Below, piece after piece: positions 15,457 through 32,751 of a stretch of DNA of 33,237 nucleotides. The DNA is taken from positions 1-33,237 of the forward strand of contig JAIEPP010000402.1 in NCBI GenBank assembly GCA_019748335.1. Reading direction: 5' to 3'. The notes below the pieces were generated by a model. It was given only the letters and a program-made list of their open reading frames with translations, made no database searches and was not told where the DNA came from. How positions within the stretch are numbered: the stretch's first letter is position 1; every line of letters starts with the position of its first letter. Source of the stretch: Xanthobacteraceae bacterium. GTDB taxonomy: Bacteria; Pseudomonadota; Alphaproteobacteria; Rhizobiales; Xanthobacteraceae. The translations under genes and the position numbers were made by a program.

Positions 15457-16041
15457 CTACGGCGCAGAAAACACGACCTCCTCGCTATTCGTGATCGTTG
15501 CGAAGCGTCTCAGTATCTCGATGGATTGCCGATGTTCGTCCGCACTCGCCGCGGCACAGCCGTCTTCGATAACGCTGCAAACGTAGTCGCGATCGTGGGC
15601 ATCGCGGACGGCAGCCTGGACGACGGCCGTAGTCGATACGCCTGAGGCGAAGATATGCTCGACGCCTTGAGCGCGCAGAAGAGCCTCGAGGCCGGTTGAG
15701 AAGAACGGGCTGACGCGATGTTTGGTGATGACGGCATCGTTCTCATTTAAGCCGAGCGAAGGATGGATCTCCGTTCCCGGTGAACCAAGTTGGAATAGCC
15801 GCTTTTCCTGGGCCGACCCGAACATTGGCGAACGCCGCGGACATTCCTTGTAGTCCGCAGAGAACCCGACGCGAACGAATATGATCGGGATGCCGGAGTG
15901 TCGGGCCTTCTCGATGGCACGTCGCGTATTTGCAAGGACTCCACGCGCCCGCACTTCGGCGCCGATAGGACCTTTCGCGTAAGCCCCGTCTTCGTGAACG
16001 ATCTCGTTCTGCATATCAAGAACAAGGTAGGCTGACTTCAT
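15457..16041 (-). CDS. isochorismatase-fold (cysteine hydrolase-like) protein
   Basis: MKSAYLVLDMQNEIV, GIPIIFVRVGF, DAVITKHRVSPFFSTGLEALLRAQGVEHIFASGVSTTAVVQAAVRDAHDRDY. Confidence 0.9.
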   Translation of the reverse strand: MKSAYLVLDMQNEIVHEDGAYAKGPIGAEVRARGVLANTRRAIEKARHSGIPIIFVRVGFSADYKECPRRSPMFGSAQEKRLFQLGSPGTEIHPSLGLNENDAVITKHRVSPFFSTGLEALLRAQGVEHIFASGVSTTAVVQAAVRDAHDRDYVCSVIEDGCAAASADEHRQSIEILRRFATITNSEEVVFSAP

Positions 16042-16185: not shown

Positions 16186-17415
16186 TCAGCGTTGATTTAG
16201 GAATGGACAGCCGCCTTCGGCGAGCGGTTTGAACACCTCCGATCCTGGCGACGTCTGAACGACGTTGTAGTAATCGAAGGGATAGTGGGACTCGGAGGGC
16301 GACTTGACCTGCAGGAGGTAAACGTCGTGCAGCACTCGACCATCCTCGCGTACCCGCACATTCTTGTTGTAGGCATCGTCGACCGGCAACTTCTTCATCT
16401 CTTGCGCGACCTTGAGCGCGTCATCGGTGCCCGCGGCTTCGATCGCACGCAAATAATGCCTTACACCCGCATACACGCCGGCCTGCACCGCCGTCGGCAC
16501 GCGGTCGCTGCCCATCGCTGCGGCAAAACGCTTGGTGAGAGCGCGGGTCTCGTCGTTCAGATCCCAATAAAAGGACGTCGTCACCATCATGCCCTGAGCT
16601 GCTTTCAGACCCAGCGCATGGACGTCGGTGATTTCCACCAATAATCCGGCGAATTGTTGCCCGCCCGTGATGCCGAATTCCGCCGCCTGCTTCACAGAGT
16701 TGATCATATCCGTTCCCGCGTTGGCCAAGCCGATGACTTTCGCATGCGACGCCTGGGCTTGCAGAAGGAAGGACGAAAAGTCGGACGAATTGAGTGGATG
16801 CCGGACTGAACCAAGCATTTTTCCGCCGTTCGCCTGGACGAACCCAGTAACGTCCCGCTCCAAGCTGTGGCCAAAGGCATAATCGGCTGTCAGCAAATAC
16901 CACGTGTTGTAGCCCTGCTTGAGCATCGCTTTGACCGTGCCATTGGCGAGCATATACGTATCGTAATTGAACTGGATAGTGGTTGGCGAACAGCTCGCTC
17001 CCGTCAGCGCTGTCGTCGCGGCTCCGGACGACATGAAAATGCGCTTGGCGTTACGGGTGATCTCGTTGATGGCCAGCGCCGCTGACGAACTGGCGCCATC
17101 GACGATGGCATCGACCTGTTCTGCATCGATCCAGCGACGGGCGATGCCACTGGCAATATCTGCCTTGTTCTGGTGATCGGCAAAGATCAGTTCAACCGGC
17201 TTCCCCAGCACCTGGCCATTGAAATCCTCGATGGCCAACCGCGCCATCACCACCGAGCCCTTGCCGCCGATGTCCGCGAAAGGTCCTGTTTGGTCGTTCA
17301 AGACTCCGATCTTGACGGTTCCATCCGACAGTTGGGCCGATGCTACCTGAGCCGAGCTTCCATAACCGAGCAAGACGGTCAGCATGGCTGCGGCGAAAAC
17401 GATCTGTTTCCTCAT
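16186..17415 (-). CDS. LivK-type ABC transporter substrate-binding protein
   Basis: Signal peptide; LSDGTVKIGVLNDQTGPFADIGGKGSVVMARLAIEDFNGQVLGKPVELIFADHQNKADIASGIARRW. Confidence 0.93.
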   Translation of the reverse strand: MRKQIVFAAAMLTVLLGYGSSAQVASAQLSDGTVKIGVLNDQTGPFADIGGKGSVVMARLAIEDFNGQVLGKPVELIFADHQNKADIASGIARRWIDAEQVDAIVDGASSSAALAINEITRNAKRIFMSSGAATTALTGASCSPTTIQFNYDTYMLANGTVKAMLKQGYNTWYLLTADYAFGHSLERDVTGFVQANGGKMLGSVRHPLNSSDFSSFLLQAQASHAKVIGLANAGTDMINSVKQAAEFGITGGQQFAGLLVEITDVHALGLKAAQGMMVTTSFYWDLNDETRALTKRFAAAMGSDRVPTAVQAGVYAGVRHYLRAIEAAGTDDALKVAQEMKKLPVDDAYNKNVRVREDGRVLHDVYLLQVKSPSESHYPFDYYNVVQTSPGSEVFKPLAEGGCPFLNQR

Positions 17416-17429
17416 GTTTCTCTCCTTTT

Positions 17430-18449
17430 TTATGACTTGATCTCGGCTGCGCCGTCGTCAGAGACGCGCCGGGCTTTCTCGTGCCAGTCGATCAGGCGTC
17501 GAATGCCGCTCTCGAGATCGACCTGCGGCTGCCATCCGAGCATTCGCTTGATTTTCTCCCGCGAGAATCCGATGCGTGATTTTGCGGTAAAGCGCACTCT
17601 CCCCGCCTCTTCGCGATACTCGGGCTTGAGGGCGGAGCCGGTGATGTTCAGCAATATCTCGACGATCCGATTGAGCGTTGTGTCGACGCCACTGACGGCC
17701 AGGAAGCTTTCACCGCAAATGGCGCTGGCCATGGCCATGAGATTGGCGCGCGCAAGATCTCCTACATAGACGTAATCGTGCACCTCGTTGCCATCGCCGG
17801 GCAGCACGGGCGCATGGCCAGCCTTGATGCGATCATAGGCTTCGAGAATGTACAGCGAATTCACGCCGCGATAGTGTTGACGCTCGCCATAGACAGTCGA
17901 GTAACGCAGCGCAACGAATTCAATGCCATAGCGTTGGCCGTACAGCCGACACAGATTCTCGCCGATCAATTTCGTGGCACCGTAGATCGCACCGCCCGGC
18001 TGCAAGCCCTGCCAGCAGAATGGCGTATCCTCCGTCACCGGATAGTCGTCGGTATCGCCAAAGGTTGCGGTTGAAGATGAAAAAACGACCTTTTTCACAC
18101 CTCGGTAACGGCATGCATCCAGCGTATTCAGCATTCCCCTGACGTTGACGTCGATGCCCAACCAGGGATTTTGCGTCAGCGGCATCGTGAGAAAGGCGGC
18201 GACCGCGAATACGCCGTCTATTCCCTCCAGGTGATCGTAAAGATCGTTAGTCCGCAGAATATCGCCACGTACGATTTTAACGCGGTCATCATTCTCGAAA
18301 GCGCGCAAGGTTTCCGGCGTGCCCAGAGAATAATTGTCAAACAGAACGACGGAGGCTGCGCCTGCTTCAAGCAGGTGTTCGGTTATATGGGAGCCGACCA
18401 GGCTAGCCCCTCCTGTTATCAGAAAGGAGCGTCCCTTAATGTCCACCAT
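17430..18449 (-). CDS. NAD-dependent epimerase/dehydratase (extended SDR)
   Basis: FLITGGASLVGSHITEHLLEAGA, VVFSSSTATFG, GAIYGATKLIGENLCRLY; ATG at 18449 preceded by AGGAGA. Confidence 0.92.
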   Translation of the reverse strand: MVDIKGRSFLITGGASLVGSHITEHLLEAGAASVVLFDNYSLGTPETLRAFENDDRVKIVRGDILRTNDLYDHLEGIDGVFAVAAFLTMPLTQNPWLGIDVNVRGMLNTLDACRYRGVKKVVFSSSTATFGDTDDYPVTEDTPFCWQGLQPGGAIYGATKLIGENLCRLYGQRYGIEFVALRYSTVYGERQHYRGVNSLYILEAYDRIKAGHAPVLPGDGNEVHDYVYVGDLARANLMAMASAICGESFLAVSGVDTTLNRIVEILLNITGSALKPEYREEAGRVRFTAKSRIGFSREKIKRMLGWQPQVDLESGIRRLIDWHEKARRVSDDGAAEIKS

Positions 18450-18510
18450 GTTATTGTCTCCTGAAGGATCTCGAGTCTGCTGTTGGAGCGAAATCGTCCC
18501 GAGCGGATGC

Positions 18511-20259
18511 CTAGGGCACTCTGCCGCCACGAGCCTGGCGTGTCGCCGCTTCGTCGATGCGGCACGCGTCGCGATCCGTCGTTAGGACCACCCCATATTG
18601 CGTGTTGGCGTCTTCGATCGTGATCAGGCCGTTCGTGACATCCTTCAGGACCTTGTGCGGGTCTCGTCGAAACGGATTGCCGAAACCGCCACCGCCGGGC
18701 ATGGATATCCGCGCCGTATCCCCGTCCCTGAGGACGACGCCTTCGTCCTTGGTGGTGTGCTCAGGCCGGTAGGGGGCGCCGCCGCGTCGATACTCGACAA
18801 CCGTGGGAAGAGCTTCGCCACCGCCATGGAGACCGGTCGGCGGAAACCGTCCGCGGTCGCCCAGCACGCTGGACACAGCCTCACCCCGAGCCAAACGGAT
18901 CTGCCATTCACTGCCAAATCCCCCACGCCACTCGCCGGCCCCTGCCGACCTTTCCCGGATGCGGTAGTAGTCGAACAAGATCGGGTATTGCTGCTCCAGG
19001 ATTTCGATTGGTGTCGTGCGCGAGGCACCAATAGGCGAATTTGCGTTGGTGAGCCCATCCCCGCTTGCGTGCCCGCCATATCCGCCGCCGCTGAAGCGGA
19101 ACATGATGTACGGCTTGCGCTGCTCGGGGTCGTATCCGCTGATCGTGAAGTTCGCAACAGACCCGAACGAATTTGCGGGAACGCGGTCCGGTACAGCCTG
19201 GCCCAGGCAGCCGAACACCGCATCGACGACGCGCAGCGAGACTTCAGCTGAAGATCCCGAGACCGCTCGCGGATATTTGGCGTTGAGAAAAGTGTCCTCG
19301 GGAACGTTGATCCGGACCGGACGGAAGATCCCCGCGTTGATCGGCACCTCCGGGAAGATGTGCTTGAGGGCGACGAACACCGCTGCGAACGTCACCGAAA
19401 GCGTGCCGTTGAGCGGTCCCTTGACCGGCGCTGACGAACCGGAAAAGTCGAAATCCAGAGTGTCGTCGGCCACCGTCACCGACAAAGCAACGCGGATGGG
19501 AGCCGGCTCGATGCCATCGGAGTCGAGGAACGCTTCCGATCGATAGATTCCATCGGGAATCTCCCTGATATAGGCTCGCATCTGTGTTTCGGAGCGTTCG
19601 CGCAGTTCGTCCATGTAGCGCTCAACTTCGGAATCGCCGTATTTGTCGAGCAGGCCGCGGAGGCGTTCGGCACCGACGTTGAGAGCCGCGAACTGCGCCT
19701 GCAGGTCGCCGCGCCGCTCCTCCGGCACACGCATGTTGGCAAACAACAGCGTCAGGATGTCTTCCCGAATAACACCATTGCGCGCCAACAGTATCGGCGG
19801 AATGCGGACTCCTTCCTGGATGATCTCGGTCGCGCGGACGCCGAATCCACCCGGCACGTTGCCCCCGATGTCGGTCCAGTGACCGCAATTGGCGAGGCAA
19901 GCGAAGCGCCGCCCGTTATAGAAGAATGGGCGGACCAGCTTGACATCCATCAGGTGGGTGCCGCCGCAGTATGGGTCGTTCAGAATGACGACGTCGCCTT
20001 CTTCGAGATCGGGAAAGGCTTCGAGCGCTGACTGGACCGCATATTGCATCACGCCCACGAAGATCGGCAGGCCGGTGTCCCCTTGGGCGACCACCTCCCC
20101 GGTGGTCTTGTGATAAATGCCATTGGCGCGATCGCGAGCCTGCGACATCACGGGATTAAAGGCAGCCCGTTCAAGCGCCAGGTCCATCTCGTCGACAATC
20201 TGGCGCAACGCGTTTTCCATCACGGTCAAAGTTGCGGGATCGATGTTGAGGTTTGCCAT
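18511..20259 (-). CDS. hyuB: hydantoinase B/oxoprolinase family protein
   Basis: TVMENALRQIVDEMDLALERAAFNPVMSQARDRANGIY, GDVVILNDPYCGGTHLMDVKLVRPFF, GGGGFGNPFRRDP. Confidence 0.94.
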   Translation of the reverse strand: MANLNIDPATLTVMENALRQIVDEMDLALERAAFNPVMSQARDRANGIYHKTTGEVVAQGDTGLPIFVGVMQYAVQSALEAFPDLEEGDVVILNDPYCGGTHLMDVKLVRPFFYNGRRFACLANCGHWTDIGGNVPGGFGVRATEIIQEGVRIPPILLARNGVIREDILTLLFANMRVPEERRGDLQAQFAALNVGAERLRGLLDKYGDSEVERYMDELRERSETQMRAYIREIPDGIYRSEAFLDSDGIEPAPIRVALSVTVADDTLDFDFSGSSAPVKGPLNGTLSVTFAAVFVALKHIFPEVPINAGIFRPVRINVPEDTFLNAKYPRAVSGSSAEVSLRVVDAVFGCLGQAVPDRVPANSFGSVANFTISGYDPEQRKPYIMFRFSGGGYGGHASGDGLTNANSPIGASRTTPIEILEQQYPILFDYYRIRERSAGAGEWRGGFGSEWQIRLARGEAVSSVLGDRGRFPPTGLHGGGEALPTVVEYRRGGAPYRPEHTTKDEGVVLRDGDTARISMPGGGGFGNPFRRDPHKVLKDVTNGLITIEDANTQYGVVLTTDRDACRIDEAATRQARGGRVP

Positions 20260-20260
20260 T

Positions 20261-22297
20261 TCAATTCACCTTGATGATCAGATTGCCAAAATCATCGACC
20301 ACAATTTCCGTATTCGGCTCGACGACAGTGGTCGTGTCCATCTGATTGAAGATTGCGGGGCCGCTCAACCGTGTGCCGGTCGGCAGCTTCGCGCGATCGT
20401 AGATCGGCGTATTGACCCATGACTCGTCAAACCACACATCGCGATGGCCGATCACCGCCTCGTCGAAGCTCCCGGGCTTTTGGGTCGCCGCAACAATGCG
20501 TTTGAGATCCAGGGAGGGACGAATGCCGACTACGGTCGTGCGCAGATTGGTAAGCTTCGGACGATACTGGGTTAACGTGATGCCAAACCGTTCCTGATAT
20601 GCTTTGGCAAGCCGGTCCCTGAGGGCGGCCACGTTGAGGGCGGCGGGATCAAGTTGCACGCGCACCGTGTAGGTCTGCCCCTCATATTGCATGTCCGCGA
20701 AGTGAAGGACTTCCGTGCGTTCGATGGGCACCTGGTCGTGGTGAAGAATTTCCTCGCCGGCCTTGCGATGGCGAGCGAGAATCGCGGCCAGGTCCTCCTC
20801 GGCGAGATCGTCGACGGCGCGACTGACGGTCTGCGTGAAATCATGACGAACATCGGCCACGATACAGCCCAGCGCGCAGGTGATCCCTGGCACGTATGGT
20901 ACGATCACCGTCGGCACGCCCAGTTCGCGAGCCAAAGCGACGCCATGCAGCGGGCCGGCGCCCCCAAAGGCGAAGATCGCAAATTCGCGCGGATCGAGGC
21001 CGCGTTGCAAGCTGACTGCTCTGATGGCGCCTGCCATGGCATCGTTAATGACGCGAAGGACTGCGGTCGCGGCTTGCGTGGGCGCCAACCCAAGCGGGGC
21101 GCCAATGGTGTCGCCAAACGCCTTCATTATCTTGTCGCGGTCGATGGCGTCGCTCACTGCGAGTAGGCGCTCCGACGACAATCGCCCCAGCATGACATTG
21201 GCATCAGTAACGGTCGGCCGCTCTCCGCCCCGTCCATAGGCAATCGGACCCGGCACTGCCCCGGCGCTGGCGGGCCCGACCTTGAGGATGCCAGCCTCAT
21301 TGAGGTGAGCGATCGATCCACCCCCTGCGCCGATGGTGTGGATGTCGATGATTGGAATCCGCATCGGCAGGCCGAAATCGAGATCGCGGTCGCCGGTGAC
21401 GATCGGCTCGCCGTTGACGATCATACCGACATCGAAGCTGGTGCCGCCCATGTCACAGGTGATGACGTTTCGATAGCCGGCCAATCGGGAAATGTAGGAG
21501 GCGGCGATAACACCTGCGGCTGGACCAGACAGCACGGTGCTGACCGAGCGGCGGCAAGCCATGTCCACCGACATTATCCCGCCGTTGGCCTGCATGATCA
21601 CCAGGTCTCGGGGCACTCCCGCGTCCCGCAAACTATCGCGAAGGCGGCTGACGTAGCGGTGGATTTTGGGTTGGATGTAGGCGTTGACGGCCGCTGTTCC
21701 GAAACGTTCGACCTCGCGGAATTCGCCCAGGATATCGCTGCTCGTGGTGACGTAAGGATTGTGCCACAGGCGCGCGGCGATGGCCGCCGCTCGCTCCTCG
21801 TGGGAGGAGTTGGCATAGGAATGCAGGAAGCCGATCAGCAAGGATTCGCATCCGCGCGCTTGCAATGTACGGATCGCTTCCTCGACTTCCCGTTCGTCCA
21901 GATCTTCGAGGACTTCGCCCTTGGCGTTGAGACGCCCGGTCACCTCAACGCGGCGATCACGCGGGATGAGCGGCCTGAACTCGCCGAACAGTCCGAACAG
22001 CTGCGGACGTTCGCGTCGACCCAGTTCGAGGATGTCGCGGAAGCCGCGGGTTGTGATCATCCCACAAGCGGCGCCATTACGCTCCAGCGTCGCGTTAGTT
22101 CCGACGGTGGTCCCGTGAACCAGCCAAGAGATGTCCGGAAGAGCGATCGCGGTGGCTGACAGGCCATTGAGAAATCCGGTCGCCTGATTCTCAGGAGTCG
22201 ATGGGACCTTGCTGAGACGAACTTCGCCGTTTTCGGAATCGATACAGATCGTGTCGGTAAACGTACCGCCGATATCGACGCCTATGTGATAAGTCAT
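20261..22297 (-). CDS. hyuA: hydantoinase/oxoprolinase family protein (subunit A)
   Basis: HIGVDIGGTFTDTICID, LVHGTTVGTNATLERNGA, VLSGPAAGVIAASYISR, CDMGGTSFDVGMI, FAFGGAGPLHGVALARELGV. Confidence 0.95.
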   Translation of the reverse strand: MTYHIGVDIGGTFTDTICIDSENGEVRLSKVPSTPENQATGFLNGLSATAIALPDISWLVHGTTVGTNATLERNGAACGMITTRGFRDILELGRRERPQLFGLFGEFRPLIPRDRRVEVTGRLNAKGEVLEDLDEREVEEAIRTLQARGCESLLIGFLHSYANSSHEERAAAIAARLWHNPYVTTSSDILGEFREVERFGTAAVNAYIQPKIHRYVSRLRDSLRDAGVPRDLVIMQANGGIMSVDMACRRSVSTVLSGPAAGVIAASYISRLAGYRNVITCDMGGTSFDVGMIVNGEPIVTGDRDLDFGLPMRIPIIDIHTIGAGGGSIAHLNEAGILKVGPASAGAVPGPIAYGRGGERPTVTDANVMLGRLSSERLLAVSDAIDRDKIMKAFGDTIGAPLGLAPTQAATAVLRVINDAMAGAIRAVSLQRGLDPREFAIFAFGGAGPLHGVALARELGVPTVIVPYVPGITCALGCIVADVRHDFTQTVSRAVDDLAEEDLAAILARHRKAGEEILHHDQVPIERTEVLHFADMQYEGQTYTVRVQLDPAALNVAALRDRLAKAYQERFGITLTQYRPKLTNLRTTVVGIRPSLDLKRIVAATQKPGSFDEAVIGHRDVWFDESWVNTPIYDRAKLPTGTRLSGPAIFNQMDTTTVVEPNTEIVVDDFGNLIIKVN

Positions 22298-22304
22298 GAT
22301 TGGC

Positions 22305-23165
22305 CTATACTGTCGTGTGGTTGTGTTTCACGGGTTGCTTCTTGCGGATGTCGACCCCGGGGATCATGCCAGCGGCGGTGAAACCGCCATCGACAGGCAT
22401 GACAAGTCCGGTGAGGAACTTTGCCTCCTCGGAGGCGAGGAAGAGCACGGCCGACACCACATCTTCCTCGGAGCCGTTGATGCCCAGCGGATTCCGCCTC
22501 CGCCGCTCTTCCCACCCGAGTTCGTCGAGATTGCTGCGCGACATCGGACTGGGGATGGCGCTTGGTGCGACCGCGTTGACGCGGATGCCGTCCGGCCCGA
22601 GTTCAGTCGAGAGCGCCCGTGTGAGCGCGTCGACACCGCCCTTGAGAGCGGCATACGCCGAACTGTAGCCAATCCCCCGCAGGCTCACGACCGAGGATAG
22701 ATTGACGATCGAACCGCCGCCGGCAGTGATCATGCCAGGCACCACCGCGCGGCATGCCAGCAGCAGGCCTTTGATGCCAACCGCCAGCATGCGATCGATG
22801 ACATCCGGCTCCAGGTCGGCCAGCGCACCGTAACGCGCGAAGACGGCACTATTGACCAAAATGACCGGTGGCGCGAAGCGGCGCGACAGGCTGTCGACGG
22901 CCGCTCGCAGGTCGTCCGGACGCGACACGTCCGCAGACAACGCCAGCCCCTCGGCGCCGGTAGCGGCAACCTCCTCCGCCACGTCGGATACCGTCGCGGC
23001 ATTGAGGTCCAGCAATCCGACCGCCGCCCCCGCGCGAGCGAACCCCAAGGCAATGGCTCGACCGAGCCCTTGCCCAGCCCCGGTGACGAGCACCACCTTG
23101 TTCTGTAGGCGGCCTGATGTTGCGCTCATTCGAAGTCCCTGCTCTCGATTGGCGTTGTCGGACAT
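22305..23165 (-). CDS. SDR-family oxidoreductase
   Basis: KVVLVTGAGQGLGRAIALGFARAGAAVGLLDLN, VNLSSVVSLRGIGYSSAYAALKGGVDALTRALSTELGPDGIRVNAVAP; intact YxxxK. Confidence 0.93.
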   Translation of the reverse strand: MSDNANREQGLRMSATSGRLQNKVVLVTGAGQGLGRAIALGFARAGAAVGLLDLNAATVSDVAEEVAATGAEGLALSADVSRPDDLRAAVDSLSRRFAPPVILVNSAVFARYGALADLEPDVIDRMLAVGIKGLLLACRAVVPGMITAGGGSIVNLSSVVSLRGIGYSSAYAALKGGVDALTRALSTELGPDGIRVNAVAPSAIPSPMSRSNLDELGWEERRRRNPLGINGSEEDVVSAVLFLASEEAKFLTGLVMPVDGGFTAAGMIPGVDIRKKQPVKHNHTTV

Positions 23166-23202
23166 CGGATGCGGTGCCCAGTTCCTGATTTCGTTTCGGC
23201 GC

Positions 23203-24072
23203 TCACGCTTCCTTGAACTCGTAGGATTGGCCGAGCTTCAACATGTCCTCCGTTCCGAGAACGGCGTTGAGCGAGGCGAAATCCAGCATGCGGTCGTGAC
23301 AGCCCGCGGTAGACCCCCGCTCTTTCAGGTTCGCCAGAAGGGACTGAAGCGCGTGAACGATGGTGCGCACCGCCGCGCCGGGATAGATGATCAGGGAAAA
23401 GCCCAGATCGTTCAGTTCCTGCCTGTCCGTAATGGGGGTGCTGCCGCCTTCGACCATGTTTGCCATGAGTTTTGAGCGGCCGCGGAAGCGTTTGGCGATG
23501 CCTACGAGTTCGGCGTGGCTGCGCGGCGCTTCGACAAAGATCACGTCAGCGCCGGCACGCACATAAGACTCCGCCCGTTCGAGCGCGGCTTCAAAGCCTT
23601 CGACCGCGATGGCGTCGGTACGGGCAATAATCAGGGTGTCATCGCCGTTGCGGGCGTCAAGCGCAGCCTTGATTTTGCCGACCATCTCGCCACCCGAGAT
23701 CAAGCGCTTGTCCGCCAGATGCCCGCAGCGCTTCGGCATCAGTTGATCCTCCAGCTGGATGGCGGAAGCGCCGCTGCGCTCCATGAGCCGCACTGTTCGC
23801 TGTACGTTGAGCGCGTTGCCGAAACCGGTATCACAATCGACGATCAGCGGAAGATCCAGGCGTTCGCGAATCGCGCTAACGCTATCGGCGACCTCCTTCA
23901 TCGACACCAGTCCGATATCCGGACGGCCGAAGCGGGTGTACGCGAGGCTCGCGCCGGAAAAATATGCGGCGGGAAATCCGGCGCGTTCGATCAGCAGCGC
24001 GGACAGTGCATCGTAGCAGCCGGGCGCGATGACGGGACCCGGTCCGTCCAGGAGCTTTTTCATCTTACCCAT
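23203..24072 (-). CDS. isocitrate lyase/PEP mutase superfamily C-C lyase
   Basis: VIAPGCYDALSALLIERAGFPAAYFSGASLA, PLIVDCDTGFGNALNVQRTV, ASAIQLEDQLMPKRCGHLADKRLI; KRCGH catalytic motif. Confidence 0.94.
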   Translation of the reverse strand: MGKMKKLLDGPGPVIAPGCYDALSALLIERAGFPAAYFSGASLAYTRFGRPDIGLVSMKEVADSVSAIRERLDLPLIVDCDTGFGNALNVQRTVRLMERSGASAIQLEDQLMPKRCGHLADKRLISGGEMVGKIKAALDARNGDDTLIIARTDAIAVEGFEAALERAESYVRAGADVIFVEAPRSHAELVGIAKRFRGRSKLMANMVEGGSTPITDRQELNDLGFSLIIYPGAAVRTIVHALQSLLANLKERGSTAGCHDRMLDFASLNAVLGTEDMLKLGQSYEFKEA

Positions 24073-24562
24073 TGGTGGAAGTCCTCAACGTCTTTTCCAA
24101 GTGCGGCAGGAGGCCCCCATCGCGGACCATCGCCATCAAATGCGAGGGAATCGGCTCGCAATCGTGTTGCTGTCCGGTGGCCGTCTCCACCGCGCGTCCA
24201 CTGGTCGGATCGACAGCGATGCGAGCGCCGTCCGGAATTTCGGACGCGGTCGGGCACACAAGGACAGGTAGACCAAGGTTCAATGCGTTGCGGAAGAAGA
24301 TCCGGGCGAAAGATTTCGCCACGACGGCGCTGACGCCAAGCGCCAGCAGTGCTGCCACGGCCTGTTCGCGCGAAGATCCGGCGCCGAAATTGTCGCCGGC
24401 GACGATGATATCGCCGGGACACACCCGGTCGACAAAGCCGGGGTCGACAGCCTCCAGACAATGGCGGGCGATCTCGGCAATCGCGCCCTTCATGTAACGG
24501 CCAGGCGCAAGTTGGTCGGTATCGATGTTGTCGCCAAAACGATGCACTGCACCTTCGATCAT
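24065..24562 (-). CDS. aconitase-family (3-isopropylmalate dehydratase-type) small subunit
   Basis: HRFGDNIDTDQLAPGRYMKG, GDIIVAGDNFGAGSSREQAVAALLALGVSAVVAKSFARIFFRNALNLGLPVL. Confidence 0.93.
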   Translation of the reverse strand: MIEGAVHRFGDNIDTDQLAPGRYMKGAIAEIARHCLEAVDPGFVDRVCPGDIIVAGDNFGAGSSREQAVAALLALGVSAVVAKSFARIFFRNALNLGLPVLVCPTASEIPDGARIAVDPTSGRAVETATGQQHDCEPIPSHLMAMVRDGGLLPHLEKTLRTSTNG

Positions 24563-25836
24563 GGGAGAAACTCCCGCGGATCGACGATGTGTCCTGCGAC
24601 CGCGGCGGCGGCGACGGTGTAAGGCGACCCCAGATATATCTGTGCGCTGGCTGCGCCCATTCGCCCTTTGAAATTACGGGCCGTTGAGGAAATGCAGACT
24701 TCCGCTTCGCCCAAGAGCCCGGCGCCGTAGCCGGCGCATGCGCCGCAGCCGGTCGGCAGCAGCACGGCCCCCGCTTCCATCAGCGTCGCGAGCGTACCCT
24801 CGGCTTTGGCTTGCTCAACGACTCGATTCGACGCAGGCGCAACCAGCAGCCGCGTTCCGGCGGCGATCTGCCGCCCCGTCAGGATTTCTGCGGCCATCCG
24901 CAGGTCGACAAGTTTGGCGCCGGTGCACGAGCCAATATAGGCTTGGTCTACAGCGACGCCCCTATGCTCGCTGACGGGCCCGGATGCTTGAGGCGAATGC
25001 GGGGCGGCGACCTGCGGCGACAAAGTGCTGGCGTCATAATCACGCCGAAGCTCATAATCGGCGGCAAGGTCCGTTTGCCATGCCGCCGTCTCCGCGGCGC
25101 TGACTGGCGCTCCGACCTCGCTGAGATAGTCGAGTGTTGTAGCATCGGGCGCTATCAACCCGGTTTTGGCGCCCAATTCGGCCGTCATGTTGCACAGGGT
25201 CATGCGCTCGGCCATGGGCAAGGAAGTCACCGCCTCACCTGCGAACTCGACAGCACGGTAGTTGACCGCTGCCTGGCCGAGCGTGGCACACAAATGCAGC
25301 ATCATGTCCTTTGCGGTGACGCCGGCCGCGAGGCGACCATGCCAGGTCAGCAGCAGTGTTCGCGGCACCTTGATCCAGATTTCGCCCCTGACCAGCACGC
25401 CCAACATTTCAGTCGCACCAATCCCGACCATGAAGGCGCCGAAGGCGCCGCCTGTTGGCGAATGACTGTCGCCTCCCACGACGAACATTCCCGGACGGAT
25501 CAATCCGTGCTCGGGAAGCACCACGTGGCAAATGCCTTCGGAGTCGAAAAATTGCGCGATTCCCTGCTCGCGCGCCCATTGCCGTGTTAGGTCAACAATT
25601 GCCGCACTTTCGGCGTCGATTGCCGGTGCGTAATGATCGGTAACCAGCGCCACTCGGCTGGAATCCCAGGGCGCCTCGCCCAGCCGATCGAGCATCGGCT
25701 TGATCCTGCGAGGGCCGCCCGAGTCATGCATCATGGCGAGGTCGACCTTGCAGGTCACGATTTCGCCGGCTGATACGGCGTCACGCCCGCAGGCGCGCGC
25801 GATAAGGCGCTCCGCTAGGGCGCTCGGTCCCGCCAT
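24559..25836 (-). CDS. aconitase-family (3-isopropylmalate dehydratase-type) large subunit
   Basis: GDSHSPTGGAFGAFMVGIGATEM, AYIGSCTGAKLVDLRMAAEIL, LLPTGCGACAGYGAGLL; three Fe-S Cys positions present. Confidence 0.93.
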   Translation of the reverse strand: MAGPSALAERLIARACGRDAVSAGEIVTCKVDLAMMHDSGGPRRIKPMLDRLGEAPWDSSRVALVTDHYAPAIDAESAAIVDLTRQWAREQGIAQFFDSEGICHVVLPEHGLIRPGMFVVGGDSHSPTGGAFGAFMVGIGATEMLGVLVRGEIWIKVPRTLLLTWHGRLAAGVTAKDMMLHLCATLGQAAVNYRAVEFAGEAVTSLPMAERMTLCNMTAELGAKTGLIAPDATTLDYLSEVGAPVSAAETAAWQTDLAADYELRRDYDASTLSPQVAAPHSPQASGPVSEHRGVAVDQAYIGSCTGAKLVDLRMAAEILTGRQIAAGTRLLVAPASNRVVEQAKAEGTLATLMEAGAVLLPTGCGACAGYGAGLLGEAEVCISSTARNFKGRMGAASAQIYLGSPYTVAAAAVAGHIVDPREFLP

Positions 25837-25904
25837 GTTCCCTCTCCATTACGCGCCACGAAATCGCGGCCCCGCGGCCCTTTTTCGTCCGGGCCAATGT
25901 TCTT

Positions 25905-25941
25905 TGGAATACATTTCCATTTTTTATGGAAATGATTTCCA
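25905..25941. promoter_or_regulatory. tandem IclR-type operator pair
   Basis: TGGAATACATTTCCA (25905-25919, imperfect) and TGGAAATGATTTCCA (25927-25941, perfect 7-1-7 palindrome), centres 22 bp apart, between leuC-like (-) and iclR-like (+) starts. Confidence 0.75.
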
Positions 25942-26116
25942 TTTTATTAGATCGAGGAAATACCCGTGTCAAGGGCGCGCTGACGCGCGACCGGAAAGCT
26001 CAGTTTTGAGGAAGAGTTTCAGACGAAGTGCCGTGGCCCCCACAACTTGTTGACTTATTTTGTTGGAAGCGGTTCGTTCGCACCCCCACCGTCAATGGGC
26101 AGGTCGATTCAGGCGA

Positions 26117-26947
26117 ATGATTAAGAGCACGAAAAAAACGGCGGCCAAGCGCTCAAAGCCGCGCCAGGCGGCTATTTCAAGCGCCTTATCTCCTAGCGAT
26201 CTCGACGACAGCCAATTGATTTCGGCCCTTTTGCGCGGCCTGAACGTGCTTAGCTCATTCCACGTAGGAGATAACGAGCTCGGGAATCACGAGTTTGCGG
26301 AGCGCACCGGGCTGCCCAAAGCGACCGTGTCACGCATCACGTTCACGCTCGCCAAAGCCGGCTTTTTGACCTTCGACCAGCGCCAGCGTGTGTATCGGCT
26401 TGGCCCGAAGGCCCTCAATCTTGGATTCATTGCGCGCGCGGATAACGATCTTCGCGCGAACATGCGTCCTCTCATGCAGCGGCTCGCCGACGAAACCGGC
26501 CTAAATGTCGGGCTTGGCGTGCGAGACAAGGACGCGATGCTTTATCTCGACACTTGGGAAGGAACGGCCCTCGTTGGGCTCAAGGTTTATCCTGGCTTTA
26601 GGATGCCGATATTTACGACAGCGATGGGACGGGCCTATCTGGCGGCATTGACGCCGGACGAACTGGAAACAGTCTTAGCAGAATTCAGTCGCCAAATGAG
26701 CGATACTGGAGTGCGAAGAGAGGATGTGCTCGAGCAGATCGAGCATGCTCGTAGGTTCGGGTTTGTGCGCAGCATCGGTGACTGGGTCGAGGACATCGGC
26801 GCTATTGCAGTCACTTTCCGTCGTCCCGACCGCAGACAGATCTACATTCTCAGCCTGGGCGGACCGATCTATAAGATGACCGACTTCTTCGTCTACAACG
26901 AGATTGGTCCCAAGCTCTTACACTTCCGGGACCAGCTTGAGGCCTAA
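26117..26947 (+). CDS. IclR-family transcriptional regulator
   Basis: LISALLRGLNVLSSFHVGDNELGNHEFAERTGLPKATVSRITFTLAKAGFLTFDQRQRVYRLGPKALNLG. Confidence 0.94.
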   Translation: MIKSTKKTAAKRSKPRQAAISSALSPSDLDDSQLISALLRGLNVLSSFHVGDNELGNHEFAERTGLPKATVSRITFTLAKAGFLTFDQRQRVYRLGPKALNLGFIARADNDLRANMRPLMQRLADETGLNVGLGVRDKDAMLYLDTWEGTALVGLKVYPGFRMPIFTTAMGRAYLAALTPDELETVLAEFSRQMSDTGVRREDVLEQIEHARRFGFVRSIGDWVEDIGAIAVTFRRPDRRQIYILSLGGPIYKMTDFFVYNEIGPKLLHFRDQLEA

Positions 26948-26975
26948 GCCTGCACGTCGCGGCTCTTGGCATGAC

Positions 26976-27875
26976 TTACTCGTCCAAGATTCCTTCGCCC
27001 TGTGCGGACCTCAACGCCTTCAGGAAAGCCCGCACGGCCGGCGTTTCGTGATTGCGGTTCCATACCGCCCCGAGCGGAAGCCGTGTGTCAAACCCGGTCA
27101 GCGGCCGAAAGGCGACGCCGGGGTGCGGCTCTTGGGTAAACGACGAAATAATGAAGAGCCCAATGCCTTCCGTCACCAAGTTGTAGCCCAATTGAGGCTG
27201 CGCAGTGTGATAGACAACGTCCGGCTTCTGGCTAGTTGCTTGCAGCAACTTGTCGAGCAGATGATCATAAAGAGGAGGATTGAGGTGACGTGCGAACAGT
27301 ATTAGCTGGGCGCCTCGAAGCTTGGAAGCCGAGATCGTACGAGCCGCAGAGAACGGGTGGTCCTCGGGAAACGCGACCATCCAACGCCCTTCGACAACCA
27401 GCCGGGAGGCCAATTCCGCTTTGCTAACCGGTAGAAACGCGAATCCGAGGTCGATGCGATGTCCGAGAAGCGCCTCTATCACTGCGGAGGAATAGAGTTC
27501 AACGGGTTCAATCTGGATCTGAGGCATTTGTTGCCGATACCAACGCAGCGTTGCGCCTAGGAAGCGTCGACAAACGTACTCAACATAACCGAGCCTAAGG
27601 GTCTTGGTGGATGCCTGCCGCAATCTCTGGAGAGCAGCCAATCCTTGGTCGAGTTCCGACAGGCACGCCTTTGCGGCCGGAAGAAACTCCTGGCCCGCGC
27701 GCGTCAACTCCACGCGAGTGCGGGATCTGGAAACCAACATCACTCCGGTTTCACGCTCGAGTTCGCGGATCTGACCGCTCAGTGCCGGTTGACTGATGTT
27801 TACGCGCGCTGCAGCTTTTCGGAAATTGAGTTCCTCCGCCAAGACGACAAAGGAGCGCAGCTTGCGAGTGTTCAT
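26976..27875 (-). CDS. LysR-family transcriptional regulator
   Basis: MNTRKLRSFVVLAEELNFRKAAARVNISQPALSGQIRELERETGVMLVSRSRTRVELTRAGQEFLPAAK. Confidence 0.95.
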   Translation of the reverse strand: MNTRKLRSFVVLAEELNFRKAAARVNISQPALSGQIRELERETGVMLVSRSRTRVELTRAGQEFLPAAKACLSELDQGLAALQRLRQASTKTLRLGYVEYVCRRFLGATLRWYRQQMPQIQIEPVELYSSAVIEALLGHRIDLGFAFLPVSKAELASRLVVEGRWMVAFPEDHPFSAARTISASKLRGAQLILFARHLNPPLYDHLLDKLLQATSQKPDVVYHTAQPQLGYNLVTEGIGLFIISSFTQEPHPGVAFRPLTGFDTRLPLGAVWNRNHETPAVRAFLKALRSAQGEGILDE

Positions 27876-28057
27876 TGCGGATGCCGCGTCGCTGCAGCGC
27901 AATTCCGCATCGCAGCAAACCTATTTTCGATCGGCCATCGCGGAGAGGATCGTTGGCAGAAGTGGCGGCACATGGGTCGGCCTTTGGGGAAGAGTACCTT
28001 TCAAGAGACATTCTTCCTCGAATCGTCCCACCAGACAATAACCGCTACGCCGCAGTT

Positions 28058-28924
28058 TTAGGAAGGGCCGAACTGCTTCTCGCGCTCGTCCCAAACCTCT
28101 TTCGCCACCGCCCTCTGCCGCTCCTCGAAAGACGCAAGACGTGACGCTATCCTCGTGAGAGATCCCTTGTCTCGCAATTCCGTCAGCACTTCGAATGACG
28201 CCTTCAGCGCGGCTTGAAGTACGGCGTTTGCATAGAGAACGACGGAAAATCCCAATTTGGCGAAACCATCGCGGCCGAGATCCGGAGTCCGCCCGCCGAA
28301 GACCACGTTGGCAACCTGTGGTACATCGAGCTCGCAAGCGATCCGTGCGAGTTCGCTCTCGCTTGTCGGCGCTTCGACGAAGGTCACGTCGGCGCCAGCC
28401 TCGATGTACGCGCGTGCACGTTCGAGAGCATGATCAATTCCCTCGATGGCAAGGGCGTCGGTGCGTGCGATGATCTGAAAGTCGGAGTCGGTCCGGGTGT
28501 CCGCGGCAGCCTTGATCTTGCTAACCATCTCGTCTACCGGGATTACATGCTTGCCGCTAAAGTGGCCGCATCTTTTGGGAAAGACCTGATCTTCAAGCTG
28601 GATCGCCGACGCACCGTGACGCTCGAACCAGCGCACGCAGCGGATGACGTTGAGCGCGCTTCCGAAGCCGGTATCCCCGTCCACGATAATCGGGATGGAC
28701 ACTGCGTCGGCGGTCGCCGCAAGCACGGCCGATACTTCCGTCATTGTCGTAAGACCGATGTCCGGAGCTCCCAAGTGCATGTTTGCAACGCCGGCCCCCG
28801 TTACGTAGACGGCCTCGAATCCCATCGCTTCGACGACCTTGGCAAACATCGCATTGGCGGCGCCGGGTACGGGAATGGCCCGGCGTTGTGAAAACATCTG
28901 CTTAAGCTTCGTCGTGTTTCGCAT
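28058..28924 (-). CDS. isocitrate lyase/PEP mutase superfamily C-C lyase (second copy)
   Basis: IPIIVDGDTGFGSALNVIRCVRWFERHGASAIQLEDQVFPKRCGHFSGKHVIP; colinear with ORF 23203..24072. Confidence 0.94.
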   Translation of the reverse strand: MRNTTKLKQMFSQRRAIPVPGAANAMFAKVVEAMGFEAVYVTGAGVANMHLGAPDIGLTTMTEVSAVLAATADAVSIPIIVDGDTGFGSALNVIRCVRWFERHGASAIQLEDQVFPKRCGHFSGKHVIPVDEMVSKIKAAADTRTDSDFQIIARTDALAIEGIDHALERARAYIEAGADVTFVEAPTSESELARIACELDVPQVANVVFGGRTPDLGRDGFAKLGFSVVLYANAVLQAALKASFEVLTELRDKGSLTRIASRLASFEERQRAVAKEVWDEREKQFGPS

Positions 28925-28967
28925 CCGACAATGTTCCTCAATTCGACTTGGTTCTCGAGTCCGTGGT

Positions 28968-29771
28968 TCAGCTTTTGCCCGCGTGGCTGAGTAAGGGGAT
29001 GGTGCGGACTAGCTCGGCGACCTTTGCAGTCAATGGCAGTTCCAGTCCTGCGTCGGCGCTCGTCCTTGTAGCAATCTCCATATCCTTGATGGACCAACGC
29101 ATTTCTGCGATATGATCCCAATGCCGCAAACTCCAGTTATCGGCGCTACTCGTGATCAACGCCTGCCTTAGTGAAGCCAGGTCGAGTTGCCAGGTTTCCG
29201 CGAGACGCAAGCCTTCGTCGCTTGCGACCACGCAGGCCCAGAGGATCAAATTATTGATGGTTTTCGCAACCTGGGCCGCGCCGGGCCTCGACCCGACGTG
29301 CTTAATGTCCGAGCAGAACGGCCTCATGAATGCGGCAGCCGCGTCACAAGCCGACTTCTCTCCGGAGAGAAAGGCCAGCAAAGTGCCCGCTACGGCCCCC
29401 ATTTCCGCCCTGCATACCGGCGCATCGACGAGCTTGATGCCGCGCTCGTCAGCCGCGCCACTGAGATCATAGACGTATTCCGGCGATACCGTACTAATCA
29501 CCATGACAAGGGTGCCGGGTCGGGCAACGTTCAAGATACCTTTTGAACCGCGAACAAGTTCGTCCACCTGGGCCTGTGACCCAGTCATGATCATGACGGC
29601 CTCGGCTTCGCCGATGGAAGCCGGAAGGTCGGTAACAGCCTGTCCTCCCGCCGTTGCGAAGTGCGCCATTCGGTCGTCGGCAACATCGTATCCACTTACG
29701 TGCAGCCCCGCTCGTAGCGCATGCTTCGCCATTGGAAGCCCCATCCGTCCCAATCCTGCAAACAGCAGCAC
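28968..29771 (-). CDS. beta-hydroxyacid dehydrogenase (3-hydroxyisobutyrate dehydrogenase-like)
   Basis: MLLFAGLGRMGLPMAKHALRAGLHVSGYDV, KLVDAPVCRAEMGAVAGTLLAFLSG, AAQVAKTINNLI. Confidence 0.92.
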   Translation of the reverse strand: MLLFAGLGRMGLPMAKHALRAGLHVSGYDVADDRMAHFATAGGQAVTDLPASIGEAEAVMIMTGSQAQVDELVRGSKGILNVARPGTLVMVISTVSPEYVYDLSGAADERGIKLVDAPVCRAEMGAVAGTLLAFLSGEKSACDAAAAFMRPFCSDIKHVGSRPGAAQVAKTINNLILWACVVASDEGLRLAETWQLDLASLRQALITSSADNWSLRHWDHIAEMRWSIKDMEIATRTSADAGLELPLTAKVAELVRTIPLLSHAGKS

Positions 29772-29780
29772 GATATCACC

Positions 29781-31043
29781 TCAATAGTCGACGTTAGCGC
29801 CGGAAGTTTCTGGAAACGCCCATGCAATGAGCGCGAGCAGAAGCAGTAGAACGACCGCGCCGATAATAAGGGGAGGGTATCCGATCACTGGATACAGCGC
29901 GCTCGCGAGGAGCGGCGCGGCGAAGGTGGTTCCACGCGCCAACTGGAGTGCCGAGGACATTCCTGTCGCACGCAGAGCTACGGGAAACACCTCCGAGAAG
30001 AGGGATCCGAATACGGAAGCAGTCGCGCCGAAGCCAGCGTACAGAAGAAAGAATGGGGCAAGAATTCCCGTCAATGACGTCAGCTCGGACCAGAGAAGGA
30101 AGACCAGGGTTCCCCCTACCGCACCGACCACGGCCGCCAATGAAAGCGTCATACGGCGACCGATGCGATCGATACAAAGAGCGGCGATCGTCGCGCCGCC
30201 AAGGCCGGCCAGTCCCGTGAAGAAAATCCACCAGGATGCCTTGGTCAGAGAAAATCCTGCCACGTTGACCAGATATGTCGGCATCAGCGTGGTGATTCCG
30301 TAGTATGCGAACAACTGGAAGGTCGCCGTGAGATAGCACAGGAGCAGCGGCTTCAGGAACGAAGACTTCGTGAATTCACGACCTGATGCCAGATGTTGCC
30401 CGGCCGCCTTTCTCTGTTCCCAAAGGGATGATTCAGGGGTGTTCAAGCGAATGAGAACAACGAGCGCGATCGGAGCGGACGAAATGATCAGGGACCACGA
30501 CCAGCCGGCATAGGGAAGGACAAGCCCACCGGCGACAGCGGCGAGCACGATGCCGACAAAAATTCCGCTATAGAGCATCGAGCTCCAGGCGCCCCGCCGT
30601 TCCTTGGATACGGTCTCCGTCACCAGCGTTTGTCCCACACCGTACTCGCCGCCGATCCCGATGCCGGCGAAGATGGTAAAGAACAACATGTATTCAAAGT
30701 TCGGGGTGAAGGCGCGAGCAAGTGTCCCGATGCAATACTGCAGAATACACAGCTGGAGTGCCCAGCGGCGACCGAATCGATCGCAGAGGTAGCCCCAGAG
30801 CACGCCCCCAACGGCAAGCGAAGCCAGTTGCGTCGACAGGATCACCGAGATCTGGCCGTTGGTCCAGCCGAATTCTTTGGCCATGGGAACGATGACGATC
30901 GTGAGGAAGTAAACCTCAAAATAGTCGAACACCCACCCCAGATAGGCGGCCATGAATGCCCGCCAGGACGCGCTGCTTTCAGCGCGATCCGTCGAGACCG
31001 ATTCCGGTTGGCTAAGGCCCATAATGTTCGGTTCAGCGCTCAT
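29781..31043 (-). CDS. MFS transporter (metabolite/organic acid:H+ symporter type)
   Basis: GWVFDYFEVYFLTIVIVPMAKEFGWTNGQISVILSTQLASLAVGGVLWGYLCDRFGRRWAL, NTPESSLWEQ; 12 hydrophobic segments by eye. Confidence 0.94.
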   Translation of the reverse strand: MSAEPNIMGLSQPESVSTDRAESSASWRAFMAAYLGWVFDYFEVYFLTIVIVPMAKEFGWTNGQISVILSTQLASLAVGGVLWGYLCDRFGRRWALQLCILQYCIGTLARAFTPNFEYMLFFTIFAGIGIGGEYGVGQTLVTETVSKERRGAWSSMLYSGIFVGIVLAAVAGGLVLPYAGWSWSLIISSAPIALVVLIRLNTPESSLWEQRKAAGQHLASGREFTKSSFLKPLLLCYLTATFQLFAYYGITTLMPTYLVNVAGFSLTKASWWIFFTGLAGLGGATIAALCIDRIGRRMTLSLAAVVGAVGGTLVFLLWSELTSLTGILAPFFLLYAGFGATASVFGSLFSEVFPVALRATGMSSALQLARGTTFAAPLLASALYPVIGYPPLIIGAVVLLLLLALIAWAFPETSGANVDY

Positions 31044-31215
31044 CGTTCTCTCCCCCGATATTGTTCATGACATTTCTTTTGAAACTGTCCGTCGGCTCTG
31101 ATGGAGCCGGCTTGCCGTTCTGCGAGACGGCGACCGGATGTGTGCGGCATCCGGCGCAGCCCACTTCCGCCTGAAAGATTCACGCGGCTCGAGGAAATGC
31201 TCGGCCGCCGATTGG

Positions 31216-32751
31216 CTAGGCGCCCGCTGCCGATGCCACGCGCGCACCGCGCGTCTTCCGCACCCCGTCCGCGAGACTAGCCTTGGCGGCGCTTTCGCCG
31301 GCGATGCGCCCGAATGTGGCGCCACGCAGAACCGACGTCGCCGCCGGATAACGCCGATAGTAGACTCCCACCATCGCACCAGCCGCATAGAGGCCAGGAA
31401 TGCAATCTCCGTCTGCATTCACCACTTCCGCCCTGGCGTTCGTCTTCACGCCGCCGAACGTAATGATGCCCGAGGGAATGATCGGATAGGCGATGAAGGG
31501 CGGCTTTTCAATGCTCCGGGCCCAATTCGATTTGGGCAGCTCAAGGCCCACCGTTCTCAGACCGTCGGCACGAGAAGGGACGAACGTGCCGGGCCTGCAG
31601 GCCTGGTTGAAGGCTTGCACGGTCTCTTCGAGGACGCTTGGCGAAAGGCCGAGCTTGCCGGCCATCTCGGCGATACTTTCCGCGCGAATGGGCGGCTGGT
31701 CCGTGAACACCGCCTTCATGTAGCTGGGAATGTCGTCGATCCTTGCATCCAGGATCATATAGCCGATGCCGTTCGGCTGTGTCTGGATAGCATGGCAGAC
31801 GCGATCGTAGTTGTTGTAGTCCGCTCCCGAGCCTTCATCGACGAAGCGCCTTCCGCGTCGATTGACAACAATGCCGAACGGAAAGATCAGAACCTTCGCT
31901 TCGGTGCGTCCGGACCGTTCGTCGATCGGCGTGGAATGGTATTTACCGAAATCCCCGGAAGCTGCAGCTCCAACCTCGAACGCCATGCGAATGCCTTCGC
32001 CACGGTTATAGTGAGCGCCGCGTGCGATCGGGCGGATGTTGGCCGATCCTGGTCCGACGTAACGAGCCAGCATTTCCGGACTGCCCTCGAATCCTCCGCT
32101 GGCAAGTACGACCGCACAAGCAGAGAGGTCGACCCGAACGTTGTGCCGCCCAACCGCGCGCAGTCCCACGATCTTTCCGCTTTCGTCCTCGATCAGGCTG
32201 CGTCCAGTGGTCTCATAGAAGAATTTCACGCCTCCCTCGAGCGCAGTTCTCGTCAGAGCCTCGAGCATCGCGGCGCCTCCACCGCTCGGTGTGATCATGG
32301 GAGTGTCGTCGCGGCAAGTGATTTGAGGCAGGTGAGTTGGGATGAAGCGGATGCCAAATGATTTCAGCCAGCTAATCGTCGGCACCGCTTCACGCGAGAA
32401 TGTCGCCAGATATTCCGGATCCGTGGCGGACATCGCACGCACGATATTTCCCCAGCTGCTCTGGGCTGAAGCCATCTCGTTCACAAGAGTTGGGTCGGGG
32501 TTTGCGCTCGCTACCTCCGCCATCTCTTCATCAAAATCGTCCGATAATTCGGTTTCGCTCTTCAAGCGGAGGAACGCCTCCGTATAGCGCGTGCAGCCAC
32601 CACTCTCCTCCGAAGGAGCGCGTTCCAGCACCGCGACTTTTGCTCCATGCTGCATCGCGGATACGGCTGCTGACAACCCAGCGATTCCGTGACCGAGCAC
32701 GACTACATCAAAGGTGTCTGTTACCACTGTACGCCTCCTCCGAATTCTCAT
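31216..32751 (-). CDS. FAD-dependent dehydrogenase, tricarballylate dehydrogenase (TcuA)-like
   Basis: FDVVVLGHGIAGLSAAVSAMQHGAKVAVLERAPSEESGGCTRYTEAFLRL, VVLASGGFEGSPEMLARYV, IVVNRRGRRFVDEG, FGGVKTNARAEVV, GLYAAGAM. Confidence 0.8.
   Translation of the reverse strand: MRIRRRRTVVTDTFDVVVLGHGIAGLSAAVSAMQHGAKVAVLERAPSEESGGCTRYTEAFLRLKSETELSDDFDEEMAEVASANPDPTLVNEMASAQSSWGNIVRAMSATDPEYLATFSREAVPTISWLKSFGIRFIPTHLPQITCRDDTPMITPSGGGAAMLEALTRTALEGGVKFFYETTGRSLIEDESGKIVGLRAVGRHNVRVDLSACAVVLASGGFEGSPEMLARYVGPGSANIRPIARGAHYNRGEGIRMAFEVGAAASGDFGKYHSTPIDERSGRTEAKVLIFPFGIVVNRRGRRFVDEGSGADYNNYDRVCHAIQTQPNGIGYMILDARIDDIPSYMKAVFTDQPPIRAESIAEMAGKLGLSPSVLEETVQAFNQACRPGTFVPSRADGLRTVGLELPKSNWARSIEKPPFIAYPIIPSGIITFGGVKTNARAEVVNADGDCIPGLYAAGAMVGVYYRRYPAATSVLRGATFGRIAGESAAKASLADGVRKTRGARVASAAGA

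Follow-up and report, generated by a model that had tools for sequence, protein, structure and literature searches.

The window, a stretch of 33,237 nucleotides (nt) of DNA from a Xanthobacteraceae bacterium (assembly GCA_019748335.1, contig JAIEPP010000402.1), contains genes encoding a LeuC/LeuD-type hydratase (LeuCD), two lyases of the ICL/PEPM superfamily (ICL1 and ICL2), a predicted two-subunit cyclic-amide hydrolase (HyuAB), an isochorismatase-fold hydrolase, and a TcuA-like flavin adenine dinucleotide (FAD) dehydrogenase. A sequence-only reading had placed the hydratase, the lyases, and the FAD dehydrogenase, along with a major facilitator superfamily (MFS) transporter and a beta-hydroxyacid dehydrogenase (HIBADH), in two neighboring minus-strand blocks. 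Intact open reading frames (ORFs) for every gene it named are present there, all on the minus strand, and both lyases carry the KRCGH motif. These genes fall into two separate units, with genes for a LysR and an IclR regulator in between. Unit 1 (15457-25836, minus strand) encodes the LeuC-like and LeuD-like subunits, ICL1, a short-chain dehydrogenase (SDR), HyuA, HyuB, an epimerase, a solute-binding protein, and the isochorismatase-fold hydrolase, and it extends leftwards to 15457, past the earlier limit of 23203. Its genes overlap or are mostly less than 40 bases apart through the binding protein gene, with about 145 bases before the isochorismatase-fold hydrolase gene. Unit 2 includes the genes for the TcuA-like protein, the MFS transporter, HIBADH, and ICL2, followed by the LysR gene. 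The related loci number more than 100, and the window is the sole one to hold both units.

Both subunits of the unit 1 hydratase score above the cut-offs of their families (Table 1), and the LeuC-like subunit retains the three Fe-S cysteines, which are invariant in 102 of 102 homologues. Judged from profile scores, the LeuC-like protein is not the enzyme of leucine synthesis, since a housekeeping LeuC is encoded elsewhere in the genome (locus L001; 761 bits against the TIGR00170 cut-off of 560) and the window protein reaches only 250.8 bits with the same profile. The draft genome also encodes AcnA and further LeuC paralogues.

ICL1 and ICL2 share 47% identity, and ICL1 is 67% identical to the lyase of two related loci (L031 and L032). 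All 92 of the lyases compared carry KRCGH or KKCGH, and most contain ANMVEGGxTP, resembling petal death protein; methylisocitrate lyases carry TEFG where ICL1 has ANMVEGG. Both window lyases fall under the NCBIfam cut-off for the PrpB equivalog (354.4 bits), with scores of 292.7 bits for ICL1 and 278.1 bits for ICL2. Motifs of the dialkylmalate lyase type (KKCGH/KRCGH plus the ANMxEGG loop) are present, as judged by comparison with petal death protein rather than with DML 3fa3.

HyuA contains the motifs DIGGTFTD, DMGGT, and GAVPGP, and HyuB contains the metal-ligand motifs HLMD and CGH. The ATP and metal motifs reported for caprolactamase, namely, DxGGTxTD, DxGGT, and GxxPGP in the A subunit and the metal-binding His/Asp in the B subunit (PMC8453981), are all present in the window proteins, which score 512 bits against the caprolactamase cut-off of 1000.

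A LeuC-based scan of approximately 85,000 species genomes, which started from homologues in the family with 59 to 63% identity, recovered 80 loci, or 81 with the window. In most of the loci not truncated by a contig edge, LeuC has LeuD and a lyase as its neighbors, and a gene for a ring-opening hydrolase lies within 9.5 kb of LeuC-LeuD(-lyase) in 46 of the 81 loci, which come from alpha-, beta-, and gammaproteobacteria. The idea that the LeuCD-like hydratase and the ICL/PEPM lyase form a dedicated hydrate-and-cleave unit is supported by this linkage in dozens of genomes, by the petal-death-type motif, and by the existence of a separate leucine LeuC. The ring-opener is HyuAB in 35 loci, a PF01979 allantoinase/dihydropyrimidinase-like protein in 7, and a PuuE-like protein, whose closest solved relative is PuuE allantoinase, in 4. 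The three types are non-homologous cyclic-amide hydrolases of unrelated folds, from families that share the capacity to open cyclic ureides or imides. The prototype locus, L068, encodes a GntR/UTRA regulator, a LIV-type ABC transporter, LeuC, LeuD, the lyase, HyuB, HyuA, the isochorismatase-fold hydrolase, and an FAD protein. Isolates with the full cassette include Nisaea denitrificans DSM 18348 (locus L091). Of 31 loci that have a ring-opener, 27 also have an isochorismatase-fold gene and 19 an FAD gene; among 23 loci lacking a ring-opener, these numbers are 0 and 1. The loci share ancestry, and the Fisher p-values for these counts, which ignore that relatedness, are descriptive only. Betaproteobacterial loci from Cupriavidus and relatives contain LeuCD-lyase and a TctC acid-binding protein without a ring-opener, hydrolase, or FAD gene, as expected if they import the acid itself.

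The ring-opener has been exchanged repeatedly. The LeuC tree requires at least 15 ring-opener changes, and, given its well-supported branches, the PF01979 type must have arisen at least three times and the PuuE type at least twice. The window LeuC clusters with those of L057, L126, and L128 (SH-aLRT support of 92), which hold cassette-type HyuBA. The window HyuA forms a separate lineage with that of L192, outside the clade of cassette HyuAs (100% support), and the window gene order is HyuA-HyuB, whereas the cassette order elsewhere is B-A; by its sequence, the window is an exchange of HyuAB in its own right. L192 contains the closest relative of window HyuAB (65 to 68% identity), where IclR, a TcuA-like FAD gene, a LIV transporter, HyuAB, and a binding protein are found without LeuCD or a lyase (L192:7288-18129). 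The hydratase has been exchanged as well: in L181, L184, and L185, the same lyase-HyuBA-hydrolase set lies beside a LeuCD that is only 35 to 38% identical, accompanied by the FAD gene in L184 and L185, and in L199 MmgE/PrpD fills this slot beside an ICL2-type lyase. That unrelated enzymes with similar chemistry have taken over individual steps is the chief reason for assigning the steps to one route. Within the window's own family (L181-L190 and L196), a lyase-HyuB-HyuA-isochorismatase-fold hydrolase set is common, often with an FAD gene and a LIV transporter and frequently without a nearby LeuCD.

In the FAD proteins of the cassette and in the window TcuA-like protein, Tyr stands in place of two fumarate reductase residues, Arg402 and Arg544 (29/29), and the best solved match of the window protein is 1jrz, an entry with Tyr at 402. 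The two Arg-to-Tyr changes argue against a dicarboxylate role of the fumarate reductase type for these proteins. Tyr at both sites resembles ketosteroid dehydrogenases, which desaturate beside a carbonyl.

Two groups of isochorismatase-fold proteins accompany the ring-openers. The predicted structure of the HyuBA-linked group (c7) is nearest to triuret, ureidoacrylate, and biuret hydrolases in a fold search; a vinyl-ether role, that of true isochorismatase, was considered for this group. The PuuE-associated group (c81) retains the catalytic Cys and best matches N-carbamoylsarcosine amidohydrolase, followed by 3ot4 and 3uao, the last of which is the maleamate amidase NicF.

Taken together, the genes somewhat favor reading unit 1 as a divergent version of a widespread and apparently undescribed cassette that would break down a cyclic imide or lactam with a five- or six-membered ring. 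A nitrogen ring is placed upstream of the acid because the genes conserved beside the hydratase and lyase encode an isochorismatase-fold hydrolase and cyclic-amide hydrolases whose three folds are unrelated. The sequences themselves establish the gene linkage, the enzyme families, most of the catalytic motifs, and the repeated swapping of ring-openers; from these we infer the substrate, the order and direction of the steps, and hydrolysis rather than carboxylation by HyuAB. The FAD dehydrogenase would desaturate the ring where needed, and the cyclic-amide hydrolase (HyuAB in the window) would open it to a half-amide. The isochorismatase-fold hydrolase would then free ammonia to leave a cis-alkene dicarboxylate, that is, a substituted maleate, to which LeuCD would add water. 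The resulting substituted malate would be split by the ICL/PEPM lyase in a retro-aldol reaction into a saturated acid and a 2-oxoacid, pyruvate or a different one.

Parts of this scheme have counterparts in known systems. The nicotinate fermentation of Eubacterium barkeri uses the dimethylmaleate hydratase DmdAB and 2,3-dimethylmalate lyase; there, as in unit 1, a LeuC/LeuD-type hydratase stands beside an ICL/PEPM lyase, and a cis-alkene dicarboxylate is hydrated and split into pyruvate and an acid, as proposed here. The likeness to DmdAB includes adjacent LeuC/HacA-type and LeuD/DmdB-type subunits that score over their cut-offs and the three Fe-S cysteines. In contrast to E. barkeri, where the acid arises via a B12 mutase, the acid would here come from a cyclic amide, the hosts are proteobacteria, and the window has no isomerase. 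The isomerase-hydratase-lyase module of E. barkeri is resembled by three loci from alphaproteobacterial metagenome-assembled genomes (L075, L076, and L097), in which LeuC-LeuD-PrpF is next to a gene of the class II aldolase type; L076 and L097 also have a lyase. The PrpF-type isomerase is of the Mii family. Caprolactamase CapAB, N-methylhydantoinase, and IaaCE open lactams or hydantoins with two ATP-dependent subunits whose motifs are common to window HyuAB, whereas the downstream enzymes in the window are a hydratase and a lyase and not a transaminase or carbamoylase. Cyclic imide hydrolases with a PuuE-like fold are known in HxnM of Aspergillus nidulans and a Pseudomonas putida imidase, where an imidase followed by an amidase converts ring to half-amide to dicarboxylate, as in the proposed route (PMC9304392). 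The HxnM substrate is 3-hydroxypiperidine-2,6-dione and its pathway ends in alpha-hydroxyglutarate, in contrast to the LeuCD-type hydration and ICL-type cleavage suggested here. ICL1 shares its fold and the KRCGH/KKCGH motif with petal death protein and dialkylmalate/methylisocitrate lyases, and the ANMxEGG loop with petal death protein, from which it is distant in sequence (198 bits).

Several points weigh against the cyclic imide or lactam reading. The SDR and epimerase of unit 1 have no place in the scheme, and the unit contains no FAD gene. The HyuBA-linked isochorismatase-fold proteins have Gly at the position of the catalytic Cys (22/22; C162 of TrtA, from 6xix/6xj4), and the window protein has Val. 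A simple maleamate amidase role is weakened because this Cys is absent, which makes plain amidase action doubtful. In maleamic amides, the adjacent carboxylic acid group itself brings about cleavage (PMC3913492), and so the loss of the Cys could hypothetically be tolerated. Many relatives have lyase-HyuBA-hydrolase but no LeuCD nearby; their hydratase may be encoded elsewhere. The loci were selected with a LeuC query, and some genes may have escaped our ORF calling or fallen below the tblastn thresholds. Only four independent phylogeny-aware pairs were available, none of which contradicts the association and which are too few for significance. The window LeuC type is found in 0 of 195 other sampled genomes of the genus, and the source genome is a draft (81% complete, 711 contigs, 3.5% contamination). 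The contig may therefore be foreign DNA or mis-binned.

A hydantoin or dihydropyrimidine could instead be opened to an N-carbamoyl acid and decarbamoylated by the isochorismatase-fold enzyme, with the skeleton passing to LeuCD and the lyase. The closest solved relatives (N-methylhydantoinase and PuuE allantoinase for the ring-openers and N-carbamoylsarcosine amidohydrolase for c81) and the proximity of c7 to triuret, biuret, and ureidoacrylate hydrolases speak for such a ureide route, but the product of decarbamoylation is an amino acid, and the annotated conserved neighbors include no recognized amino-acid-deaminating enzyme. An imide (or suitable lactam) is favored because it gives a LeuCD-type cis-dicarboxylate directly, without a deamination step, and for members of the ring-opener families activity on cyclic imides or lactams is also known or claimed. 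The ureide route is judged doubtful.

A single pathway for a nitrogen-free di- or tricarboxylate, such as tricarballylate or an alkylsuccinate, in which both blocks take part and HyuAB is an unrelated neighbor, had been the proposal of the sequence-only reading and is unlikely. The TcuA-like protein scores just under the TcuA cut-off and adjoins an MFS transporter, in the manner of the TcuABC system for tricarballylate utilization, which pairs an FAD dehydrogenase of the same family with an MFS transporter, and the betaproteobacterial TctC loci show that an acid is a possible entry point. In contrast to TcuABC, no TcuB gene was found among the ORFs of unit 2, and a lyase and HIBADH are added. 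The two blocks also have different regulators, and no related locus joins this LeuCD type with ICL2, MFS, and HIBADH, which speaks against a shared pathway; the conserved ring-openers of three folds linked to LeuCD-lyase, together with the isochorismatase-fold hydrolase, speak against the nitrogen-free start. The linkage of TcuA-like, LeuCD, two ICL, and HyuAB genes, named in the sequence-only reading as a check, held in part: LeuCD-lyase-HyuAB is conserved, but the window block of TcuA-like protein and ICL2 is not linked to it elsewhere. Unit 2 stands apart, its lyase belonging to a different lineage, and is possibly parallel to unit 1. Relatives of ICL2 adjoin genes for an amidohydrolase, a Cys-type amidase, and MmgE/PrpD. 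A parallel cassette with another hydratase is seen in L198-L201, where an ICL2-type lyase occurs in varying combinations with MmgE/PrpD, a PF01979 hydrolase, and a Cys-type isochorismatase amidase; L199 holds all four, and L198, L200, and L201 hold subsets.

Acetone and acetophenone carboxylases are homologues of HyuAB, and an ATP-dependent carboxylase could convert a ketone into a dicarboxylate for LeuCD and the lyase. This is quite improbable, as HyuAB has only two subunits, like lactamases, and best matches N-methylhydantoinase and caprolactamase, and carboxylation cannot explain its exchange with PuuE and PF01979 hydrolases. Chance adjacency of an isopropylmalate isomerase (LeuCD) and a methylisocitrate lyase (ICL1) in ordinary metabolism, which the family names alone would suggest, is very improbable in view of the true LeuC and AcnA elsewhere, the ICL1 score against PrpB, and the conserved linkage.

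Within the cyclic imide or lactam reading, a more specific proposal, itself unlikely, is that the cassette handles alkylated maleimides from chlorophyll, heme, and bilin, such as methylethylmaleimide, methylvinylmaleimide, and hematinic acid. The imide would be opened to a dialkylmaleamate, in which the neighboring carboxylate would help amide loss, so that the isochorismatase-fold enzyme would need no Cys; the dialkylmaleate would then be hydrated and split into pyruvate and butyrate, a butenoate, or glutarate. Hematinic acid would give pyruvate and glutarate, and methylethylmaleimide would give pyruvate and butyrate. Alkylmaleimides and hematinic acid derive from chlorophyll and heme and are reported in senescent leaves and lake sediments, and about 10^12 kg of chlorophyll is made and degraded per year (PMC7318184). 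Other imides, lactams, or hydantoins may also be the substrate. The open-licence literature yielded no description of the operon, of bacterial degradation of hematinic acid or methylvinylmaleimide, or of maleimide together with hydantoinase. Riboflavin catabolism (PMC12746152) was rejected as a match, since its enzymes differ and aconitase and hydantoinase are absent from its account.

The IclR gene diverges from unit 1. The region between it and LeuC contains two matches to the palindrome TGGAAATNATTTCCA, one of them exact; 0 of 100 shuffled sequences had two. TGGAAATNATTTCCA is the Escherichia coli IclR consensus, and the palindrome is likely an IclR-type operator. A sigma-70 scan of the promoter region found no site above the scan threshold.

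Table 1. Predicted genes and sites of units 1 and 2 in the window
Feature	Position	Strand	Basis
Isochorismatase-fold hydrolase, Val for catalytic Cys	15457..16041	-	Pfam; alignment
Peripla_BP_6 solute-binding protein, LIV type	16186..17415	-	Pfam match; homologue adjoins HyuAB in L192
NAD-dependent epimerase/dehydratase family protein	17430..18530	-	Pfam Epimerase
HyuB, metal-binding subunit of predicted cyclic-amide hydrolase	18511..20259	-	Hydantoinase_B
HyuA, ATP-binding subunit of predicted cyclic-amide hydrolase	20261..22297	-	Hydantoinase_A; best PDB match N-methylhydantoinase 7hk5
SDR	22305..23165	-	adh_short_C2; outside conserved cassette
ICL1, ICL/PEPM superfamily lyase, KRCGH and ANMVEGG	23203..24072	-	PEP_mutase; best PDB match 1zlp, petal death protein
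LeuD/DmdB-type hydratase small subunit	24065..24562	-	TIGR02087, 173.5 bits (cut-off 109)
LeuC/HacA-type hydratase large subunit	24559..25836	-	NCBIfam NF001614, 536 bits (cut-off 385)
Second, imperfect copy of TGGAAATNATTTCCA site	25905..25919	.	2 mismatches
Exact TGGAAATNATTTCCA palindrome upstream of LeuC, candidate IclR-type operator	25927..25941	.	Exact match
IclR-family regulator, divergent from unit 1	26060..26947	+	Pfam IclR_C, HTH_IclR
LysR regulator of unit 2	26976..27902	-	Profile match
ICL2 lyase (unit 2)	28058..28924	-	Profile match
Beta-hydroxyacid dehydrogenase (HIBADH)	28968..29771	-	Profile match
MFS transporter	29781..31043	-	Profile match
TcuA-like FAD dehydrogenase	31216..32751	-	367.9 bits, just under NF006130 TcuA cut-off of 369

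Elsewhere in the window, a dihydrolipoamide-dehydrogenase-like ORF (11572-12774) has a Pfam match that begins at profile position 58, its N-terminal part apparently missing, and a partial MFS transporter ORF (9765-10559), which covers only MFS_1 positions 114 to 324, is possibly decayed or frameshifted. Two nearby genes of the nitronate monooxygenase family (1169-2155 and 4574-5557) and a second LIV-type binding protein gene (5640-6851) are also present. In L126 and L128 (positions 1-9900), genes for an AMP-ligase, an AcmB/beta-lactamase-like esterase, and an NMT1/THI5-type ABC transporter lie beside the cassette; both loci also hold an extra Cys-type RutB/BiuH-like amidase, a possible hint of a larger substrate.

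The cassette is shared by many bacteria of soil and sea, and the refilling of each slot by unrelated enzymes while the logic stays constant strongly suggests that many bacteria use it on a substrate that genuinely occurs in the environment. A role is thereby suggested for common genes annotated as "hydantoinase," "LeuC-like," and "isochorismatase." Should an imide or lactam be the substrate, the cassette would connect proteobacterial breakdown of nitrogen rings with the dimethylmaleate hydratase and dimethylmalate lyase chemistry known from a single anaerobic fermentation. If it is a tetrapyrrole-derived maleimide, the cassette would account for the fate of the last pieces of chlorophyll and heme.

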